This document shows positions 8,446 through 58,996 of a DNA stretch of 64,000 nt, piece after piece (position 1 is the stretch's first letter; every line of letters begins with the position of its first letter). The notes below the pieces were generated by a model. The model saw only the letters and a program-made list of their open reading frames with translations. It was not told where the DNA came from and did no database searches. The position numbers and the translations under genes are program-made. Origin of the DNA: Candidatus Pelagisphaera phototrophica (GTDB lineage: Bacteria > Verrucomicrobiota > Verrucomicrobiia > Opitutales > Opitutaceae); NCBI RefSeq assembly GCF_014529625.1, contig NZ_CP076039.1, positions 3,224,001-3,288,000 on the forward strand, read 5' to 3'.

Positions 8446-8577
8446 AAGGGGATAGCGGTTGAGTGAGGGGGAGGAGTATTTGGGAAAGAAGAACATCCTC
8501 TGCAAGGTCCAACTATTTTCAAGTGGAATTCCCAATAAAAATAGAACCGGCTTCTAGCCGATTAACCAACTCGAGGC

Positions 8578-8598
8578 AACAGGCAGGAGGCCTGTTAC
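8578..8598. repeat. short palindrome of the AACAGGC...GCCTGTT type
   Basis: AACAGGC-AGGAG-GCCTGTT is an exact 7-base inverted repeat in the gap between the MFS gene and the next sulfatase. Its core resembles the longer hairpins at 57738-57798 and 44979-45000. It may be a degraded copy or a weak terminator for the upstream sulfatase. Confidence 0.4.
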
Positions 8599-8610
8599 AC
8601 TCTATTCTAT

Positions 8611-14535: not shown

Positions 14536-14586
14536 ACTGGCTCAGTCCTACGACTGTGCCTCAATTTGCTAAAGGACTGAGCCAGT
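14536..14586. repeat. hairpin with exact 14-base arms
   Basis: ACTGGCTCAGTCCT is repeated inverted as AGGACTGAGCCAGT around a 23-base loop. It lies between the stop of the sulfatase at 14646 (minus strand) and the start of the agarase-like gene. It could terminate the sulfatase transcript, although no T run follows, or be another dispersed hairpin element. Confidence 0.6.
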
Positions 14587-27737: not shown

Positions 27738-29351
27738 CTATCCCTTCTGAGTCCCTGGCTTGCTATTACCGAAGAGACTTTTTATATCCTTAATTTTTGT
27801 AATGATTAGTTGGTTACTATTCTCGCTTCCGTCTCCGGAAAGCGTGATGGGTGTTCCAACATGATAAGCGAGATTAAAATCATGAAAGTCCCTGAACTCG
27901 ATCTCGATGCGTACCGGCAACTTTCCTTCGATATCGATGTAGAAGACCTTCGCCTCGTCGAGGTTGTCGGACATGCGGAGCCGACCTTGAGCAGTGATGG
28001 AACCGCCCTGGCGCGTGACCCAACTATCAAAGGAACGTTCTTGAAATTCGGGAAAGTAGCCACCGTCGATTCCAGGAAGCGGGGTATCCGACGCGGAATA
28101 GGATTCCGCTTCAATCCCAAATAATTTCAGCAGGGAAAGGTGCAGGCTACTAAGTTCCTGGTTTTCTGAATACCGAACGTAGCGCCCCGTCTTGATACGT
28201 CCGCCTCCACCCCCCGCCAGAACGATTGGAATTCGTTGCGCAGTATGATTGTCGCTATGGCCCATCCCGGATCCGAAGAGTACCGCACTATGATCGAGAA
28301 GACTGCCGTTGTGGTCCTTGTAGGACTTGAGCTTTGTCAAGAGATAATCGAACTTCTCCATATGCCAAAGGCTGATCTTAAGCAAGGAATCCAGGTTTTT
28401 GCGGCTGAAATTTCGGAAAAAATGAGACAGGTAATGGTGCTGCTCTGGAATACCAAGAAAGTCGAATACCATGCGACTATTGCTGTTGCCCAACATATAG
28501 GTGATACAGCGGGTGGAGTCGGTCCAGAGGGCAAGAGCGATCAGGTCGATCATGGCCTCCACTTGCTCGTTTAGGTTCGCCCCGACGGGAGGCCGCTGGA
28601 GGCTCCCGAGGTCGATTCTCGGCTGGGCCTTTGCTTGCTCCATGTTCTGGATACGGCGTTCGGTTTCACGAACAACGGTCAAGTACTCATCCAATGTCTG
28701 GCGATCCTCGTAGCCCGATCTGCGAGAGAGAGCATTTGCATCGCCTTTGACTCGGTCCAGCAAGCTCGACATGGATTGCCGCTGGTCCGGATCGCTCATC
28801 GGATTGCGGAAAAGGCGATCGAAAACGAGTTGAGGATCGCTTTCGCGCGGAATGGCTCCTCCGTCTTTGTCGTAAGAAATGTAGCTGCAGCCGAATTGCC
28901 CGGTGAAAAGCCCTTCCGTGGTTAGTTCGAGAGATCGATGGGCCGTGTCCCCCCCAATCTTATCCGCTATAATCTGATCGACGGAAGCAGTATCCTTGTT
29001 CTCATGGTGACCGGCGAGAAAACGGCGAGTGGAATTGGCGTGAGACGAAAACCCAAAATCTCCCATGTTATCGAGAATGAGCAGATCGTCCTTGTGTTTG
29101 GCGAAGGGAGCCATGAGCGGCGACATTCGAAAATCGAATTCCGTCCCGCCATTGATATTCCATGAAGGCGGATGGACGCCGTTGGGTTTGAAGAGGGTTA
29201 GGAATCTGAGCGGCGGAGATTCCGTTGCCGAGCCTTTGGCCAATCCATTGCTCACCTTACCTTCCATCAAATTGAGGAAAGGAAGCGGCAACAAGGCTCC
29301 GGCAGTGCCTCGCAAGAAGGTGCGGCGGTCAATTTTCCAGCTTCTGCTCAT
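27738..29351 (-). CDS. DUF1552 family protein with Tat signal
   Basis: A 537-residue protein starting with a Tat signal (KIDRRTFLRGTAGALLPLPFL). The body matches the DUF1552 family of Planctomycetes and Verrucomicrobia: LTLFKPNGVHPPSWNI, LDNMGDFGFSSHANSTRRFL, ESDPQLVFDRLFR, TLDEYLTVVRETERRI, LFGSGMGHSDNHT and PIVLAGGGGGRIKTGRYVRY. It extends beyond the usual end with about 110 residues including AKVFYIDIEGKLPVRIEIEF. DUF1552 genes are routinely paired with DUF1592/DUF1588 cytochrome proteins, as here, where the start overlaps the end of the upstream partner by 4 bases (ATGA), so translation is probably coupled. Function is unknown; a periplasmic oxidative role has been suggested from the pairing. 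Confidence 0.92.
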   Translation of the reverse strand: MSRSWKIDRRTFLRGTAGALLPLPFLNLMEGKVSNGLAKGSATESPPLRFLTLFKPNGVHPPSWNINGGTEFDFRMSPLMAPFAKHKDDLLILDNMGDFGFSSHANSTRRFLAGHHENKDTASVDQIIADKIGGDTAHRSLELTTEGLFTGQFGCSYISYDKDGGAIPRESDPQLVFDRLFRNPMSDPDQRQSMSSLLDRVKGDANALSRRSGYEDRQTLDEYLTVVRETERRIQNMEQAKAQPRIDLGSLQRPPVGANLNEQVEAMIDLIALALWTDSTRCITYMLGNSNSRMVFDFLGIPEQHHYLSHFFRNFSRKNLDSLLKISLWHMEKFDYLLTKLKSYKDHNGSLLDHSAVLFGSGMGHSDNHTAQRIPIVLAGGGGGRIKTGRYVRYSENQELSSLHLSLLKLFGIEAESYSASDTPLPGIDGGYFPEFQERSFDSWVTRQGGSITAQGRLRMSDNLDEAKVFYIDIEGKLPVRIEIEFRDFHDFNLAYHVGTPITLSGDGSENSNQLIITKIKDIKSLFGNSKPGTQKG

Positions 29352-31336
29352 GAATTAGTTTGGGGGCTAGGGGCAATAAAGGTTTCCCGGAAAGGCAGGC
29401 TGTGGGACACTTCTACGAAAAGATCGCGCCATGTTCCGTTCGTTTCGTCAATCTTCTTTGTAATCGCGTCTATGGTTGGGCGGTCGAAAGCCTCAAGTTT
29501 TCGGCAGAGAGCGTAGGCCAAGGTTCGCTCGACTGCGTTCCGAATGATGTCGCGTCGCTTGCTCCCGAGAAGAATGGACTTCAATTCATCGAAATTTTGA
29601 AATGCTTCCCCATCAGGGAGCTGACCGGAGGTGTCGATCCGATCGGGGTCGTCATCGTGTCCGGCTCTTCTCCTCGGAGGCTTATAGTTTAAAGCGAGCT
29701 TATAGGACCCCTCATCGTCGTACATCTGAAGAGCGAAACCGAGTGGATCGATCCGATCATGACAACGGGCGCAGGTTGAATCACTGCGATGGACTTCGAA
29801 ACGTTCGCGAAAGCTGAAGTCGGCATTTGGAGCGGCGGCTTCGACCGGGGGAATGTCCGCGGGCGGCTCGCCGAGCCGTTCACCAAGAATACGTCGGAGC
29901 ATCCAGGTGCCGCGGAGAATAGGACCTCGATTCATGGCCAGAATGCCAGGTATGGTAAGAATGCCGCCGCGCCCCTCAGGCGGATCCAGACTCATTCGCT
30001 GATTCGGAACTAGCTTTCGTTCGATACCCTTGGGCCTAACGTATTTTTCCAACTGATAATTGTTTTCGGGATAGAAGGAAGCGGTATTGTGACTAGCGAA
30101 GGCGACATTCGAGTCGATCAATTCGATCACAGGACGATTTTCGGTAAAAAGGTAGTTCAAAAAATCGAAGGGCTGACTGCGGAGTGCTTGTCGACTCAAT
30201 ACGTCGTCTCGTGCGTTATCTATGTCGGCGAGTCCGAGCCATTGGTGGCCGAAGCTCTCGGCCAGATTGCGAGCCCTAGGCGAGGCGAGCATGCGGTCCA
30301 CCTGCTTTGCGATTTCGTCGGCATGTTCAAGGTCACCCCTCGCTGCCGCCTCAAATAGCTGCGTGTCCGGCATATCCTCCCAGAGGAAATACGAGAGACG
30401 TTCCGCAAGTTCGTAGGAGTCGACAAGTTGTTGTTTTCCAGGCGTAGCTTCGATCAGGAGACCTCGGTAGAGGAAAGATGGTGAGACGAGAAGAGCCTTC
30501 ATTTCGTCCCGTGTGGCGCTGAGGAGCTCCCCTCCCTTCAATCCCATCAGAGAGGCGAGCATTCGTTCTAGCTCCTTCCGAGCTATAGGACGGCGGAGAG
30601 CCCGAGGGGCGAAGGAGCGAAGCAGGGATTCCGCTTGAGCTGGGGTGAGTTCGATGGATTCGGAATAATGGGGAAGCGGCTGACCGACAAGAGTCTCGAG
30701 CGCGTCGCTCCGCTCTTTGGAGAAGAGTTCCTGAAGGGCCCGATCTGCCATGTAGGCATACTGCTCCCAGATGAAACTCGATAAGCGAGCATCGCTGGTG
30801 TCGTTGACGAATTCGCTCGGCCCAGGAGGATCGGTGGGCAGGAGTTTGATAACGAGGGATTTTTCGACTAAGGTTTGCTCGGCGGCGATGATCTGGTTTT
30901 CGAGTTCAAATCCGAAGAGAGAGCGTAGGGTGTTGCGGTATTCGTTTGCTGAGAGACGGCGGGCTTGAAAGGTTCCCGGGCGGGCTTCCACTGAGTTAAC
31001 GAATCGTTCCTCGTACCAATCGAGAATCTGCTGGGTTTCGGTGGGATCCGGGCGATTATCCTCTTCCTTAGGCGGCATTTCCTTGTAGGCGAGCACATCT
31101 GCTACCGTTTCCCAAAGCTCGAATCTCGAATCGATATCTTGGGAACGGACTATTTCCGTAAAGTCCACCTCACCTTTGACCTTCTCGCCTCCGTGGCAAT
31201 TGATGCAGTACTGCTCGAGCAAGGGCTGGATTTGGGTATCGAATACTCCGTCTTCCGTCGGCCTACCCTCCAACCCTCCAGCGGCGACAAGCGCAGTAAA
31301 GAGGGCAGAAGCGAATCTGGTTCGGGTAATAATCAT
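29348..31336 (-). CDS. PSD1-like DUF1592/DUF1588 protein with c-type haem sites
   Basis: A 662-residue exported protein. The N-terminus has a short signal-like stretch (FASALFTALVAAGGLEG). CINCH at 44-48 is a c-type haem site preceded by IQPLLEQYC, typical of the planctomycete cytochrome C domain. Then come RRLSANEYRNTLRSLFG (DUF1587), segments matching DUF1595/DUF1592 (LAERLSYFLWEDMPD, NLAESFGHQWLGL), DUF1588 (GGILTIPGILAMNRGPILRGTWMLRRILGE) and a second haem motif CARCH followed by DRIDPLGFALQMYD. The DUF1585 end (IIRNAVERTLAYALCRKLE) is present. Such proteins are membrane-associated or periplasmic redox proteins of unknown reaction. It is the first gene of the pair with DUF1552. Confidence 0.92.
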   Translation of the reverse strand: MIITRTRFASALFTALVAAGGLEGRPTEDGVFDTQIQPLLEQYCINCHGGEKVKGEVDFTEIVRSQDIDSRFELWETVADVLAYKEMPPKEEDNRPDPTETQQILDWYEERFVNSVEARPGTFQARRLSANEYRNTLRSLFGFELENQIIAAEQTLVEKSLVIKLLPTDPPGPSEFVNDTSDARLSSFIWEQYAYMADRALQELFSKERSDALETLVGQPLPHYSESIELTPAQAESLLRSFAPRALRRPIARKELERMLASLMGLKGGELLSATRDEMKALLVSPSFLYRGLLIEATPGKQQLVDSYELAERLSYFLWEDMPDTQLFEAAARGDLEHADEIAKQVDRMLASPRARNLAESFGHQWLGLADIDNARDDVLSRQALRSQPFDFLNYLFTENRPVIELIDSNVAFASHNTASFYPENNYQLEKYVRPKGIERKLVPNQRMSLDPPEGRGGILTIPGILAMNRGPILRGTWMLRRILGERLGEPPADIPPVEAAAPNADFSFRERFEVHRSDSTCARCHDRIDPLGFALQMYDDEGSYKLALNYKPPRRRAGHDDDPDRIDTSGQLPDGEAFQNFDELKSILLGSKRRDIIRNAVERTLAYALCRKLEAFDRPTIDAITKKIDETNGTWRDLFVEVSHSLPFRETFIAPSPQTNS

Positions 31337-31576
31337 CGAGGGGTCCCTATTCTTAAAGATCGAAACGCGATGACGGACAAGGAAAGATTCTAGATAAAAA
31401 TGTGGATCGCGGCCGGCCCAACGGATTCTGACGTATTTAACCGTCTCTTCGGTTATGTCGAATGGCGCGAAAGGTAACGGCTTTGCCTCTCAACTGAAGG
31501 GGCAAGTACATCCTCTACGGAAAGAAATCCGCACCGGGAATTACCTGCAACTCATCGACTCTCTGCTTAATTTCAA
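31337..31576. other. gene-free gap upstream of the DUF1592 gene
   Basis: About 240 bases with no recognised coding frame. Together with the repeats to 31711 it separates two minus-strand operons. Confidence 0.35.
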
Positions 31577-31646
31577 GTTAGCAGGCCATCTCCGGGCACC
31601 CAATCGATAGATAAAAGCATTGGGCGCTCGGAGATCGCCCGCTACC
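31577..31646. repeat. long hairpin repeat, family A
   Basis: The left arm (31577-31604) contains ATCTCCGGGCACCCAAT. The right arm (31619-31646) contains ATTGGGCGCTCGGAGAT followed by CGCCCGCTACC. The arms are 28 bases with a few mismatches around a 14-base loop. The same GGTAGCGGGCGATCTCCG core recurs at 55048-55114 and 57707-57819. Confidence 0.75.
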
Positions 31647-31685
31647 AATGCATGCAACGAACCCACCGACAGGTTGTGGTCTGAG

Positions 31686-31711
31686 ACAACAGGTTGGAAG
31701 CCTGCCCTACC
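31686..31711. repeat. short repeat, family C
   Basis: Read on the minus strand it is GTAGGGCAGGCTTCCAACCTG followed by TTG. It nearly matches the element at 56757-56783 (GTAGGGCAGGCTTCAAGCCTG then TTTAC). It lies directly before the terminator of the TonB receptor gene. Confidence 0.55.
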
Positions 31712-31746
31712 AAAAAAAGAGCGACCTAAGCAGGTCGCCCTTTAAA
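31711..31746 (-). terminator. rho-independent terminator of the TonB receptor operon
   Basis: On the minus strand GCGACCT and AGGTCGC pair exactly over 7 bases around a 4-base loop, with further pairing at the base. A run of seven T residues follows (TCTTTTTTT). It lies 36-70 bases after the stop of the TonB receptor gene, the right place and strand. Confidence 0.85.
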
Positions 31747-31781
31747 AAATTCAATCTATTCGACTAAACGGTCGCCCGTCC

Positions 31782-34700
31782 TTAGAAAGAACCACGAATA
31801 CCCGCAACGAAGCGACGGCCAACGGTAGCGTACGAGGTCGTGAAAAGACCCGGGTTATTTCCAACGTACTTTTCGTCGTCTGGCGAATCGGTTAGGTTAT
31901 CACCTTCAATAAAGAGGCGAATATCGTTGTCCTTGGTTAGCCGATACTGCACTGACATATCCACATTCTCCCGTTCTACATCAAAGGTTATATCCGAAAT
32001 CGCGGCCGTTGAAGCCGTCACCTGCAATTCGGAAATATAGTTGTAAGACGCGCGAACGCTGAGACGCTGCCATTCGTAAATGACCTGCATATTGTAGATT
32101 TCTTTCGCCTGGTTTCTCAAGCTTGGAATGAACTCGAAGTCAGTTACGACAAAATTGCCATTTTCAAGTTCATCCGTGTCAAAGATAGGATCGGTTTGAT
32201 CGCCCACAATGTACGAGTAGTTCGGAACCAGCTTAAACCCACCGAGCCACCTCACATCTGGAAGCAGATCGGCAAAACTAAAGTAACCGCTTACCTCGAA
32301 ACCTTCGATGTGGCGCTTCGAGGCGTTTGACCAGAATTTGGTATCCGCTCGGACCATTTCCGTGCCTTGGCTAGGATCTTCAGCATCCACTAGCACCTCG
32401 ATATCTCTCGTATAAATATCCTCTTGCAGAAAATCTTCGAGATCCTTCGAAAAGAGCGAAACAGAAATGGTATTCGCGTTACGCGGCCCGAAATAATACT
32501 CCCAAGCTAGGTCGATATTTTCAGACGTTTGTTCCCGCAGATTGGGATTTCCCAAGTCAAATTCATCGTCGCGCCTAGTCAGATTAAGAACACCTGCGGC
32601 TTGCAGTTGGCGATTCGCTTCCCCGAGATTAAAGGGTACCAATTCGCGGTAATCGGGACGAGTAAGCGAATTTCCATAGGCAAAACGGAGTACGTGCCCG
32701 GTCTCACCAACACGGTAGGTTCCGACCACACTAGGCAACAGATTGTCGTAGCTGCTTTTCGCGTTAATGTCGTCGACGATATCCCCAAACGAAAAGCTGC
32801 CGCTTGGCCCCGTGAAACCGATATCTTCTACGCCGTCCTGAATGAGCTGTCCGAGATTTGCTTTATCCGTATCCGCTATTCCCGGAAAGGCATCGGCATC
32901 GACATTGAAGTTAGAAGGTTTCCAAGTGGTGTCCAAGCTCGTTTCTTCGTAACGAACACCGGCAACCAAGGTAAAGTCTCCCCAGCGTTTGGTCCCCTGA
33001 ACATAAGCTGCGAAAATATCTTCGTTGAGTTCGCCCGTATCGGCAGCATCGCGAAGGTCGGAACGATCGAATTTCCAGTTGTCCGGATTAGCCGCGAGAT
33101 CTTGGAAGAAAAAGTCGTACATCGGATCGGCGGTCACAAATGCTCCGGCAGTATCTGCATACTTCCCGTCAAAGAGCGTGACATTTCCGGCGTCACTCGC
33201 TGCTGCAAATTGTCCGATCGGAAAAACGCGGCGAGCGCCTGCAGAGGCAGCGGTGAAGATCTCGTTCGTTTTGTTGTCCCGATGTGCCTTGCGCAGTCTC
33301 AGGCCCGACTTAATGGAGAAGTCTTCATCGATATCGTGATCATACTCCACGTTGAACAACTGAACATCTTCATGGACGTCTTCCAAAAGGAAACGAGCTC
33401 CTCCATCGGAGTTGTATCGGTTCAGGTCAGAAAATACATTTACCTTGTTGTTCAATGGGACATGCCCTCTATCCGATGTAACTTCGAAAATCGAAAACTC
33501 AGGTAGCGGTGTTACGCCATCGGTTATCCTAGCTCTCAGGAAGCTTTTTCCGGAACCGTCGCGATCTCCATCTCTGAAGCGGTCTTCGAACCGCCACTGA
33601 CGGCGGTAACGAAGGGAGTCGTCTGTAGAGAAAAGTGCGCGATATTCAAGGGAACCATTCTCCAGTTGGGTCTCTCCGCCAAAATCGAACGTGTAGGTAT
33701 CTCCGCTTCGATTGTCGCCAGTAACTATTCGTGATATACGCCCGTCAGCGGATCCCTCAAAGTTCGGCGTTACGATCAAATTGCCACTAGCGTCCACATC
33801 ATTGATGAAATTATCGCCTGCGCTCCCTAAGACGGGATCGTCATCGTCCTCTTCAAACGTTCCCAGGGCGTTGCCCACGTCGTCCAAGAACCAGAAGGTG
33901 CGGGAAACCGCACGCTCCAGTCGGTCAACACGAAACGCGAACGAGTCGCGATCGTCATTAAACTTTTGATATAAGGGACGGAAGTAGAGAGACGTACTGT
34001 CGGAAACCTTCAAATCGAAGCTCAAATCTAGAGTGAGGTTATCGTTTGTTCTGCGAACTTCATTCGGGTCGAACCGATTCCAAATCGGATTGCTAGCATC
34101 TTGGCTTTCGTTTAGCGAAATTTGATTCGGATCTGCTCCGGACAAGCGACCCGCATTGGTCAAAAAGCGATTCTGGGTCGACCATCCAACCTGATCTTCG
34201 TCCACGTAGTTAAAATTAACCAGCACGCCCAAATTGTCTTCCCCACCAAAGGCACTGAAAATATTCGAATTGATGATATTCGCTCCATAACCCGACTTAT
34301 CGCCTTGGTCGCGGTAGCGTGTCGAGAGCTTGTAGGTGGTTAGATTGTCGCCCCGATCAAAGGCGTTAGCCGTAATTACGTTCACGTAGCCGCCAATCGA
34401 ATCGCCCGGATGCTCTGCAGTGAGACTCTTGATTACCTCTACACCCGCAACCATTTCAGAAGGGATTTGGGTTACGTCGAAATTACGGGAGCCTAGCTGC
34501 GCATTGGCCTGAGCAGCACCGTTAATACGGATGGAGTTGTACTGCCCTTCCGCACCACGGACGGTCACGGAGCCTCCATCGACCACATTGATGCCCGCCA
34601 AACGGGAAAGCGCTTCCCCTAGATTTGTATCTGGCAGATTTCCTAGCGCATCGCCGCTCAGATAAGTTCCAATGATATCGGAATCTCGCTGCTTTTTAAC

Positions 34701-44584: not shown

Positions 44585-45088
44585 AATAGGACTTGAAAAT
44601 CCACTTTCCCAAAGTGGACCTATCCAAAAAAGTTCATAGAGGCACGCCAATCGATAGCGGTGAGGTCCTCACCAAGCCTTCCCACACAATTCTTTCTTGC
44701 GGCTCGAACGACAACCAATTGCAATACGGCGTAATGCTAGAGGCGAAAACGCTCAACGAACACGGCAAAGCCAATTCGTGTCAGCCTCCATTTTTTTGGA
44801 AAAACGGAAGCCCAGGAATCGGCGTACCCATCCCCCTTGTCGAACAGTGCTTCAGTTGTCCGGCCGGACACGTTCAACTCTGGTAGTGCACCAAAACTAT
44901 AATCGTGACCTCTGCTAGTCATCAACCAAAAACCACATTGAGTTCAACTGCAAATATTCGACAATCTATAGATAAGTGACAGGCAGGATGCCTGTTCTAC
45001 ATTTTCTAGACCGACCATTAACAAAGATCAACCAAGCTCCTTGCCTTGTCTATACCTTTAAACCCATCTCTTCAACCTCAGCAACTCC
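44585..45088. other. gap with a half hairpin and an unrecognised open frame
   Basis: A 98-codon frame at 44593-44889 starts at TTG, has no recognisable motif and is not supported as a gene. A partial family B repeat (ACAGGCAGGATGCCTGTTCT then AC, 44979-45000) with part of its loop lies near the right end. It may contain the promoter of the following sulfatase. Confidence 0.4.
44979..45000. repeat. half copy of hairpin family B
   Basis: ACAGGCAGGATGCCTGTTCTA then C is identical to the right arm of the hairpin at 57738-57798, and the preceding ATAGATAAG matches its loop. The left arm is missing. Confidence 0.65.
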
Positions 45089-55047: not shown

Positions 55048-55114
55048 GGTAGCGGACAATCTCCGAGTGCCCATCCGAAAAATACCTTTGGGTGCCCGGA
55101 GATCGCCCGCTACC
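55048..55114. repeat. long hairpin repeat, family A
   Basis: The arms GGTAGCGGACAATCTCCGAG with TGCCC, and GGGTGCCCGGAGATCGCCCG with CTACC, are 25 bases each and pair with three mismatches around a 17-base loop. The element ends exactly at the truncated sulfatase start. Other copies are at 31577-31646 and 57707-57819. Confidence 0.8.
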
Positions 55115-56783: not shown

Positions 56784-56878
56784 CAGGTAAGATGCCTATG
56801 CTAAGCTTGATTTTCAAACCGTTGCCCCGTTCGATTTATTTCATTGCGGCAAAACGACCTTCAAGGCACACATTGGAC

Positions 56879-57685
56879 ATGCCCGAAAAGGACGCGCTAT
56901 GGATTTCCAATCACGCCGAACTTAAATTAACGGCGACTCCGGTCCTTTACCATTGCGAGCCGATCTGGAGCTGGAAAACCAGTTCCCTGTCCGGTCATGC
57001 CATTTGGGGCATTCTCGACGGGTCGGGCACACTGACGCACAACGGCGCAAGCTATAGTTTGAACCCAGGAATCTGCTTTCTTTTCAGTCCAAATGACCAA
57101 ATCGAAGCAGAACAAAATCTACTCGATCCCCTTTCACTATTTGTGGCTCGATTCGAAATACTGAATACTGAAGGCGAGACCATGCCTGCACAAGAGCTCA
57201 CGGTACCCACAGGTCCGATCCAAACATCCAACCCCACGACTCTCAAAGCGATAGCGAATCTGGCTCTTGCCTGGGACGCAGAGAACGATATTGAAAAACG
57301 AATACAGGACCACGCGCTACGCATGCTGCTACTCCTGATTGCGGATGCGTCGAGTGCATCTTATGATGAACGGATCGCCCAAGCCTCCTCACTTATCGAT
57401 TCAGACCTCGCCAGAAAATGGACCCTGGAAGAGATTAGCTCCAAGTCCGGACTCTCGCCCTCACAGTTCAGTCGACTTTTCGCCAAGCACTTTGGAGAAC
57501 CACCTATTCAGAACCTCATTCACCGCCGCATGAAAGAGGCCAAGCGACTGGTACTTGAAACCAGCTTCTCAATCGGAGAAATCTGTGCTGCAGTCGGCTA
57601 CGAGAACCAAAGCTTTTTCGAGAGGCAATTTCTCAAGCATGTCGGGTTCGATGCCCAGGCGCTTAGACGCAATCGGGCTATTTGA
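56879..57685 (+). CDS. AraC-family transcriptional regulator
   Basis: A 268-residue protein from the ATG at 56879 (MPEKDALWISNHAELK). The frame opens at 56792, but that start would sit almost inside a palindrome and adds a non-matching lead. The N-terminal cupin-like sensor domain contains HAIWGILDGSGTLTHNGASY and GICFLFSPND. The C-terminal double helix-turn-helix reads WTLEEISSKSGLSPSQFSRL and FSIGEICAAVGYENQSFFER, a textbook AraC pair. It is likely a sugar-responsive activator. Its target may be in the sulfatase island to its left, but no operator was identified. Confidence 0.88.
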   Translation: MPEKDALWISNHAELKLTATPVLYHCEPIWSWKTSSLSGHAIWGILDGSGTLTHNGASYSLNPGICFLFSPNDQIEAEQNLLDPLSLFVARFEILNTEGETMPAQELTVPTGPIQTSNPTTLKAIANLALAWDAENDIEKRIQDHALRMLLLLIADASSASYDERIAQASSLIDSDLARKWTLEEISSKSGLSPSQFSRLFAKHFGEPPIQNLIHRRMKEAKRLVLETSFSIGEICAAVGYENQSFFERQFLKHVGFDAQALRRNRAI

Positions 57686-57706
57686 GGTATTTTTCCTTCG
57701 TTTCAA

Positions 57707-57819
57707 GGTCGCGGGTGATCTCCGAGCACCCACAAAAAGTAGAACAGACATCCTGCCTGTATCGGTAAATAGATAACAGGCAGGATGCCTGTTCTACTTT
57801 TCGGAAATCGCCCGCTACC
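57707..57819. repeat. family A hairpin interrupted by a family B hairpin (nested)
   Basis: Outer arms: GGTCGCGGGTGATCTCCGAG at the left, with GGAAATCGCCCGCTACC at the right, match family A. Between them, 57738-57798 is a second hairpin with 23-base arms (AGTAGAACAGACATCCTGCC then TGT, mirrored by ACAGGCAGGATGCCTGTTCT then ACT) that pair with one mismatch around a 15-base loop. The inner unit matches the half copy at 44979-45000. The outer right arm is shortened. Confidence 0.8.
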
Positions 57820-57976
57820 CGATTCTGGAAGTCGTTGACTGAGGGAAACGGCATCTTTGATGCCCAGTAAAGGAGTTGCCTACAAGTGGCCACAACCGTC
57901 TTGAACACTTGTTGAAGCGATTTTCCTCAGATGCTTATTTGACACTCTTAATTCGGATGCCTAAGCCCTTCGGTCG

Positions 57977-58996
57977 ATGCAAAAAAGTGCAGTTCTGCTA
58001 GTAAATCTGGGATCCCCCGATTCAACTTCCGTCTCAGACGTTCGCTCCTACCTTAGGGAGTTTTTATCCGATGATCGGGTTCTAGACGCAGCAAAGCCGA
58101 TCCAGCAGTTTGTTCTCAACTGCTTCATACTGCCTACTCGGCCCAAACGATCGGCCGAAGCCTACAAGAAAGTTTGGACGGATCATGGGTCTCCTTTGAT
58201 CGTTACTAGCAAAAATGTACAAGCGTTACTCCAGGAGCGAATTGACGATCACGTCGAGTTGGCCATGCGCTACGGAGGTCCATCAATCCCTTCCGCCATC
58301 AGCAACCTGAAGGCAAAGGGAATCAATAAACTGCTTCTAGTCCCTCTCTACCCCCATTACGCCATGTCGAGTTATGAGACAGTCGTCGTTAGGGTCATGG
58401 AGGAAATCGCAGAGCAAATACCCGATATTGAAGTAGAGACGGTTCAACCCTTCTACAACGATCCAGACTACATCGAGGCGCTCTATCAATCTGCCAAACC
58501 CTACTTGGAAACCGAGTTTGACCATCTCTTGTTTTCCTACCACGGAATCCCCGCCCGTCACTTATCCAAAGCAGACTCTTCAAAAGGACACTGCCGGATC
58601 GTCAAAGACTGCTGCTCAACTTGCAGCCCTGCCCACGCAACTTGCTACAAAGCCCAAACCCTAGCGACCACCAACGCTTTCGTGGCTAGAGCGGGCCTCA
58701 CGCCTGAACAGTACTCGGTCTCCTTCCAATCCAGACTGGGACGCGAACCCTGGCTAGAACCCTACACCGACTTTATCATCCCCCAGCTCGTGAAAACGGG
58801 GAAAAAACGAATACTTGTCATGACTCCCGCCTTTGTTTCGGACTGCCTCGAGACCCTCGAAGAGATAGCCATGGAGGGTAAAGAACAATTTCTGGAAGCT
58901 GGGGGTGAGTCGTTCATCGCCATCCCTTGCTTGAACGATCACCCTGCCTGGATTGACTTTCTGGCGAAACGGGCCAGAGCCTCCTCTACCGAATAG
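57977..58996 (+). CDS. hemH: ferrochelatase
   Basis: A 339-residue protein with family hallmarks: AVLLVNLGSPDSTSVSDVRSYL, LLLVPLYPHYAMSSYETVV, LLFSYHGIPARHL with the catalytic His, and VMTPAFVSDCLETLEEI with the conserved Glu pair. It inserts Fe2+ into protoporphyrin IX, the last step of protohaem synthesis. Between the two active-site segments lies CCSTCSPAHATC, a cluster of cysteines, which in some bacterial ferrochelatases ligates a [2Fe-2S] centre; here that is only a possibility. It begins the housekeeping stretch at the right of the window and would supply the haem that the c-type cytochromes here require. Confidence 0.95.
   Translation: MQKSAVLLVNLGSPDSTSVSDVRSYLREFLSDDRVLDAAKPIQQFVLNCFILPTRPKRSAEAYKKVWTDHGSPLIVTSKNVQALLQERIDDHVELAMRYGGPSIPSAISNLKAKGINKLLLVPLYPHYAMSSYETVVVRVMEEIAEQIPDIEVETVQPFYNDPDYIEALYQSAKPYLETEFDHLLFSYHGIPARHLSKADSSKGHCRIVKDCCSTCSPAHATCYKAQTLATTNAFVARAGLTPEQYSVSFQSRLGREPWLEPYTDFIIPQLVKTGKKRILVMTPAFVSDCLETLEEIAMEGKEQFLEAGGESFIAIPCLNDHPAWIDFLAKRARASSTE

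Follow-up and report, generated by a model that had tools for sequence, protein, structure and literature searches.

A nested pair of REPIN-type elements in Candidatus Pelagisphaera phototrophica and its congeners

When one short palindromic repeat is found in the loop of another, is the nest the trace of a move at that very place, or an old compound that was inherited whole? The question is raised by an intergenic hairpin in a 64,000-nt stretch of DNA (hereafter the window), which corresponds to positions 3224001-3288000 of a source genome, G000, that consists of one contig of 4.09 Mb. The first-pass annotation of the window took the nest as direct evidence that at least the inner hairpin moves as a discrete unit, possibly served by a transposase of the RAYT type encoded elsewhere.

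Anatomy of the nested hairpin

The nested structure spans 111 nt (57708-57818) and lies between two genes: an upstream neighbor on the plus strand (56792-57685), which we take to be an AraC-type regulator and which ends with a stop codon at 57685, and a downstream neighbor on the same strand (57977-58996), presumably ferrochelatase-like, starting at 57977. A 59-nt hairpin, B (57739-57797), sits inside the loop of a larger hairpin, A, whose outer arms are GTCGCGGGTGATCTCCGA at 57708-57725 and TCGGAAATCGCCCGCTAC at 57801-57818. The inner arms, belonging to B (57735-57760 and 57776-57801), are 26 nt long, 96% complementary and 15 nt apart, and they are the longest among the 11 inverted repeats listed in the window with arms no more than 80 nt apart. 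Folded as a single strand, the structure forms one nested hairpin of -37.6 kcal/mol (z = -10.6), and none of 200 shuffled versions, which averaged -10.6 +/- 2.5 kcal/mol, was as stable. The hairpin within a hairpin described in the first-pass annotation is therefore real, and it is a well-supported nested pair of REPIN-type elements; the outer limits drawn there take in one extra G-C pair.

Read from left to right, the nest comprises the left REP of A (GTCGCGGGTGATCTCCGAGCACCCA, 57708-57732, plus strand), with three mismatches to the consensus GTAGCGGGCGATCTCCGAGCGCCCA; a 6-nt A-B linker, CAAAAA (57733-57738, plus strand); the first REP half of B (GTAGAACAGAC-ATCCT-GCCTGT, 57739-57760, plus strand); the 15-nt spacer of the B dimer (57761-57775, no strand); the second, inverted REP half of B (57776-57797, minus strand); and the truncated right REP of A (57801-57818, minus strand). 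The A of the nest is damaged: the inner GGGTGC that simple A copies retain is missing from its right half. GTAG is present at the right A foot and at both B feet, the left A foot reading GTCG, and the arms of B are nearly perfect because both of its halves read ATCCT.

Searching the window with the A arm pattern returned four matches (0.07 expected), two of them the element's own arms, and the B arm pattern returned three (0.00 expected), likewise including two own arms. The separate copies that had been claimed for both families within the window were thus found at two places for A, as simple copies of 65 nt (55049-55113, no strand) and 68 nt (31578-31645, no strand; L022). Outside the nest, B is represented by one half, a single REP on the minus strand (44979-45000), and by a degenerate stand-alone dimer outside A on the plus strand (8541-8600; L010), no second well-kept B dimer being seen within the window. 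At the place orthologous to this degenerate dimer, a B dimer is found in the closest relative, G003 (L295), and a degenerate B dimer in G005 (L284).

Elsewhere in the window, a REP-like half, GGTAGGGCAGGCTTCCAACCTGT, lies on the minus strand at 31688-31711, near a simple A copy; a perfect 14-bp inverted repeat with a 23-nt loop (14536-14586) is unlike A or B; and GC skew is positive over approximately 4 kb (28001-32000) and negative in the remainder. Comparison of positions 57000-58500 with Rfam yielded four matches (E up to 1) below the gathering threshold, each of them to a microRNA hairpin family.

Dispersal and recurrent nesting across the genus

Element A is a REPIN-like inverted pair of GTAG-tagged REPs, made of two copies of its consensus and a spacer of ~17 nt, and simple A was 67 nt long in 61 of the 98 distinct copies among the loci collected for this count. 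Each half can fold alone (GTAG + C + GGGCG-n9-CGCCC). Scoring of the half-hairpin pairs over 980 cells gave 865 consensus pairs, 26 one-sided changes, 19 two-sided changes that were still paired and 70 unpaired cells, and identical changes were shared by both arms 17 times, compared to 4.66 times when arms were shuffled (maximum of 11 in 200 shuffles), all of these counts being raw and ignoring kinship among copies. The arms differed at 236 of 2450 positions. By the two-sided changes that kept their pairing, A halves behave as hairpins, the unpaired cells notwithstanding. Throughout G000, the 18-nt A arm pattern had 90 matches with up to three mismatches, against four for a reversed control. 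Among 120 genomes of the family, matches with up to two mismatches numbered 57, 42, 24 and 99 in the four that belong to the genus and no more than 18 in any other. The exact 25-base A pattern was present in 99 stretches of a named-genome collection, and among the 80 of these that were listed the titles were of Opitutaceae or Verrucomicrobiia MAGs, with one exception, Pirellulales. A larger palindromic repeat (AAATACCTCG / GGCTTG type) surrounds A in the flanks of L014 and at several G005 loci, and the L014 flanks match dozens of places in G005.

Element B consists of two inverted copies of GTAGNNCAGGC-n5-GCCTGT, in which GTAG is combined with ACAGGC-n5-GCCTGT. Nearly all of 16 aligned copies pair a half with a TTCCA-type loop and a half whose loop is of the ATCCT type, and B is, to judge from this alignment, a conserved heterodimer. 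The B model had matches in 10 of the 11 genus genomes, most of them in G001 with at least 136 (both strands counted), the counts per genome being lower bounds obtained with 150 candidates scored in each. An extra insert of ~30 nt lies inside the TTCCA half of B at L214 (TCCATACGACTCCGCTCAGGATCGATGAG), L168 and L035/L225.

Copies of A alone, of B alone and of the compound A(B) were all found. Within G000, A(B) has both arms in the window and at L007 and L009, and is decayed or one-armed at L003, L008, L027 and L035; it also occurs at loci of G001, G003, G005 and G006. Clean compounds measure 123 nt (L208), 125 nt (L007 and L009) and 126 nt (L220), or ~67 + 59 nt, and no target duplication, which a MITE of a DDE transposase would be expected to show, was visible around B in A at nested copies. 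We classified 85 B sites, 80 of which came from the matches listed (40 in G001, 12 in G003, eight in G009, eight in G007, six in G004, four in G002 and two in G005) and five of which were hand-picked in G000 (L002, L007, L009, L006 and L010), into 60 with a long and 25 with a short spacer. An inner A arm was present on at least one side of 43 of the 60 long-spacer sites and on both sides of 18, whereas the reversed-motif control gave an A arm at one site of 60. Of the 25 short-spacer sites, two had an A arm (control, none) and nine adjoined another palindrome (control, one); short-spacer B beside a palindrome with TTTGTTAAATGAG-like arms was seen at L441, L444, L445, L446, L449, L451, L453, L455 and L456.

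The finding of B without A, and of A without B, at many sites in several genomes weighs against the view that long palindromes grew through template switching or slipped pairing and that the inner hairpin was made in place. We consider such an origin highly improbable, even with the one observation that speaks for it, namely that loop orientation differs between orthologues, the left B half of the window (57739-57760) reading ATCCT in G000 and AGGAT in G003 (L042). The change resembles a tiny inversion within the hairpin.

The junctions between the two elements bear on how the compounds multiplied. The left A-B linker is 6 nt long in 16 of 32 cases and mostly A-rich; the right one is 9-10 nt long in 19 of 32 and 6 nt long in seven, and its first base is T in 26. 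Recurrent nesting together with similar linkers argues for copying of the compound more than for many separate insertions of B, and A(B) probably arose in one or a few events, after which the whole compound was copied. In the frame of the linkers, the polarity of B in G001 is opposite to that in G000 and G003, which may reflect two insertions or an inversion. Furthermore, seven of 40 G001 sites have both full A cores, 12 have one and 21 have none, and the B halves look better kept, a difference that joint copying would not predict.

Both the polarity difference among lineages and the better preservation of B in G001 would fit a history in which B and other small hairpins landed repeatedly and independently in loops, whether of A or of other palindromes, with a preference for single-stranded ones, the compounds then being the products of many events and not copies of one. 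The palindromes adjoining short-spacer B sites point in the same direction, as do two further inserts. At L170 in G003, insert C, a 39-nt hairpin, interrupts the 9-nt loop of an A half, and the G000 orthologue of this A is whole, measures 67 nt and has flanks that align on both sides; C also splits an A half at a G005 site (L190), and no target duplication was visible around C in A. Insert D (31 nt) splits the same A half-loop at L201, L207, L008 and the G003 counterpart of L008 (L293), with a looser case in L247; its copies may descend from a single event. A scan for splits at positions 7-18, performed on 276 intact A halves, found 203 with an intact partner and six with a split one, five of the six at positions 14-15 and at four sites, and none was found with six scrambled consensus controls. 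The split-loop cases may trace to one or two events. Against repeated landing stands the similarity of linkers and total length among compounds, and survival bias would mimic the picture if inserts outside the loop stopped recognition or spread. We therefore view repeated landing as possible, albeit unlikely, and favor copying of a compound formed once or a few times.

The site of the nest in related genomes

Gene order around the nest is conserved in congeners, by which the orthologous site could be located. In G003, whose upstream gene shares 95% protein identity with that of G000, the A(B) compound occupies the identical place. In G005 (88%), the site harbors a 67-nt A, the spacer of which contains GAACAGGTAGGATG, identical at 13 of 14 bases to the B half of G003 and, judged by this likeness, probably a remnant of B. 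Since the compound is common to G003, and A with an apparent B remnant is present in G005, the nest is probably older than the split of G000, G003 and G005. The nest in the window is thus an old inherited compound and no fresh insertion, and it no longer serves to show directly that a move took place here. That part of the earlier claim aside, A and B both stand as discrete units on their dispersal, their REP-type build and the existence of A-only, B-only and A(B) copies. Two observations had been named in advance as counting against mobility; one of them, relatives sharing the compound at identical sites with no empty alleles, was made in part, in G003, and the other, restriction of the copies to one place, was not, the copies being dispersed.

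Six further congeners (G010, G007, G008, G002, G001 and G004), the genes of which are ~68-75% alike at the DNA level, had neither A nor B in the stretch compared, their intergenic DNA being too diverged to reveal a precise empty site. That genomes with the same gene order have no such hairpin in this stretch argues against the elements being bidirectional transcription terminators or mRNA-stabilizing hairpins at gene ends, kept by selection and not mobile as such. The same is true of the near-identity of A at dozens of G000 sites and of an A copy that lies within a RAYT gene in G005. The element does start 22 nt past a stop codon, and terminator-like stems between 56700 and 58100 number five, against 1.3 expected in shuffles, with three of them within the element. 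All told, we hold the terminator reading to be improbable as an account of the elements, which may still have a side role of this kind.

Comparison of sites among G000, G003 and G005 revealed no precise empty site, either for a complete A or for a complete B. Upon querying 25 G000 sites in G003 and G005, 10 looked occupied in G003, judging from how far apart the flanks matched (L027, L011, L008, L010, L040, L039, L028, L017, L009 and, with a short piece, L032), G003 was without the element at L013 and L019, and the other 13, having one flank or none in G003, were uninformative. At L013, a single A REP of 34 nt in G000 is absent from G003 with clean borders, which may be the result of a deletion. 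At the empty-site candidates L019 (compared to G003) and L028, L025 and L026 (compared to G005), A is absent, but they were rejected because their borders are not clean. In the reverse direction, four of 11 G003 sites queried in G000 had a gap of about the size of the element (L154, both L170 sites and the first L168 site), the compound at the second L168 site was apparently deleted in G000 with a remnant left behind, and six sites had one flank or none in G000; two had little or no right flank.

RAYT transposases and the origin of the compound

As to the transposase that had been proposed to act from elsewhere, none was found in G000 (97.87% complete), which gave no match to either PF01797 or NF047646; a B-flanked RAYT was, in turn, found in G001. 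Across the genus, NF047646 had matches in eight of 11 genomes, over the cut-off in seven, and all six RAYT proteins compared to this model matched it, four of them over the cut-off of 80. Two RAYTs bear on B and A, one decayed and the other cut short, and both score below this cut-off. As is typical of REPs and REPINs, GTAG stands at the foot of a short palindrome here, and many dispersed singlets occur together with inverted doublets; a RAYT flanked by the same REP was found for B, at one locus. At this locus, in G001 (L275), a decayed RAYT has B-type REPs on both sides (1931/1945 and 2707); its open frame runs from 2117 to 2572, the similarity continuing beyond the stop, and it scores 39.5 bits on the open part and 62.4 bits across the stop codon. 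In G004 (L276), a C-terminal RAYT fragment of 75.3 bits lies at a contig start, and an A-type REPIN begins 29 nt past the RAYT stop, the other side being beyond the contig edge; among the 30 RAYT loci inspected it is a single case, and the position of A beside the RAYT may be due to chance. A link to RAYTs is supported for B and only suggested for A.

A scan of the first 30 RAYT loci for A and B returned weak B-like matches only (L077, L078 and L083), the G001 and G004 cases coming from loci added afterwards, and looser A-like matches near other RAYTs were not convincing. Other RAYTs of the genus are, in several cases, accompanied by REPs of their own; GTAGCTCAGTGCTTTAGCCTGAG, for example, flanks the gene on either side in G004, G007 and G008. 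A RAYT-REP relationship is thus common in the genus. The RAYT gene of G005 contig C775 (L351, ~2283-2831), which is interrupted by the A copy mentioned above and part of a larger palindrome, was rejected as an A-RAYT association, A being an insertion inside the gene and other repeats, of the GTAGGGCAA type, flanking the gene on both sides. The interruption indicates that A-bearing DNA has moved.

The part of PMC3733652 cited here reports REPtrons to be missing in some species with REPs, so that a RAYT in the same genome is no strict requirement for a REPIN. TnpA-REP is described as requiring GTAG and a hairpin on one strand (PMC8266576, in part), and the doublet has been argued to be the replicating unit (PMC3116915, in part). 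The REPINs and RAYTs of Bertels and Rainey (2011, PMC3116915), as far as described in the part cited, resemble our elements in the inverted pair of short REPs with a spacer that forms a hairpin, in the singlets beside doublets and in the RAYT proposed as mover. Our case differs in that one REPIN lies within the spacer of another, no RAYT was found in G000, and we infer movement. The GTAG tag and short stem are shared with the palindromic repeats of Di Nocera et al. (2013, PMC3733652), in the cited part of which GTAG repeats are recorded from the PVC group, abundantly so in O. terrae (Verrucomicrobia), and some REP dimers are reported as inserts in longer palindromes; these outer palindromes are not described there as REPs, whereas the outer element here is a GTAG REPIN that is common without an insert. 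IS elements that target REPs (PMC1525189, in part) likewise have a fixed insertion place in the REP, once at the axis of palindromy, but the hairpins inserted in our case, at 31-59 nt, are too short to contain a gene. The pneumococcal BOX, RUP and SPRITE repeats are other families, not described as GTAG REPs in the cited part of PMC3049150. Precedents for a nested A(B) are offered by these parts of PMC3733652 and PMC3049150. No description of a REPIN within a REPIN was recognised in the open literature searched, and the nested pair is new as a variant, close to described cases.

We consider it probable that A and B are non-autonomous REPINs, that B entered A, that the compound was copied, likely by RAYTs, and that the window copy is old and orphaned. 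In the order of events that we infer, B would have inserted midway in the spacer of A, leaving no visible target duplication, and A(B), of ~126 nt, would then have spread to many sites through copying, for which RAYTs (HUH/Y1 transposases that use single-strand DNA) acting in trans on REP ends are the most likely agents. The window copy would be an old member, inherited and reduced by partial deletion, and the lack of a recognisable RAYT in G000 would have left it orphaned.

A broader proposal, which we advance only tentatively and regard as rather unlikely, is that, in this genus, small hairpins land preferentially within the loops of other hairpins that are themselves mobile; layered palindromes would then result, and whole compounds would be copied onward as new units. 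The layers observed are B in A, C and D in the A half-loop, an insert in a B half, A in a larger palindrome, and short B beside a palindrome. Were the proposal true, hairpin loops would be a general target of single-strand transposition, and the orthologous site with and without insert C raises the question of whether loops are chosen by RAYT-type transposition or whether only loop insertions survive. A REPIN carries a second REPIN at a near-fixed place, recurring across the genus, and a cargo of ~59 nt would be tolerated in a REPIN spacer, provided that A(B) is copied as a whole.
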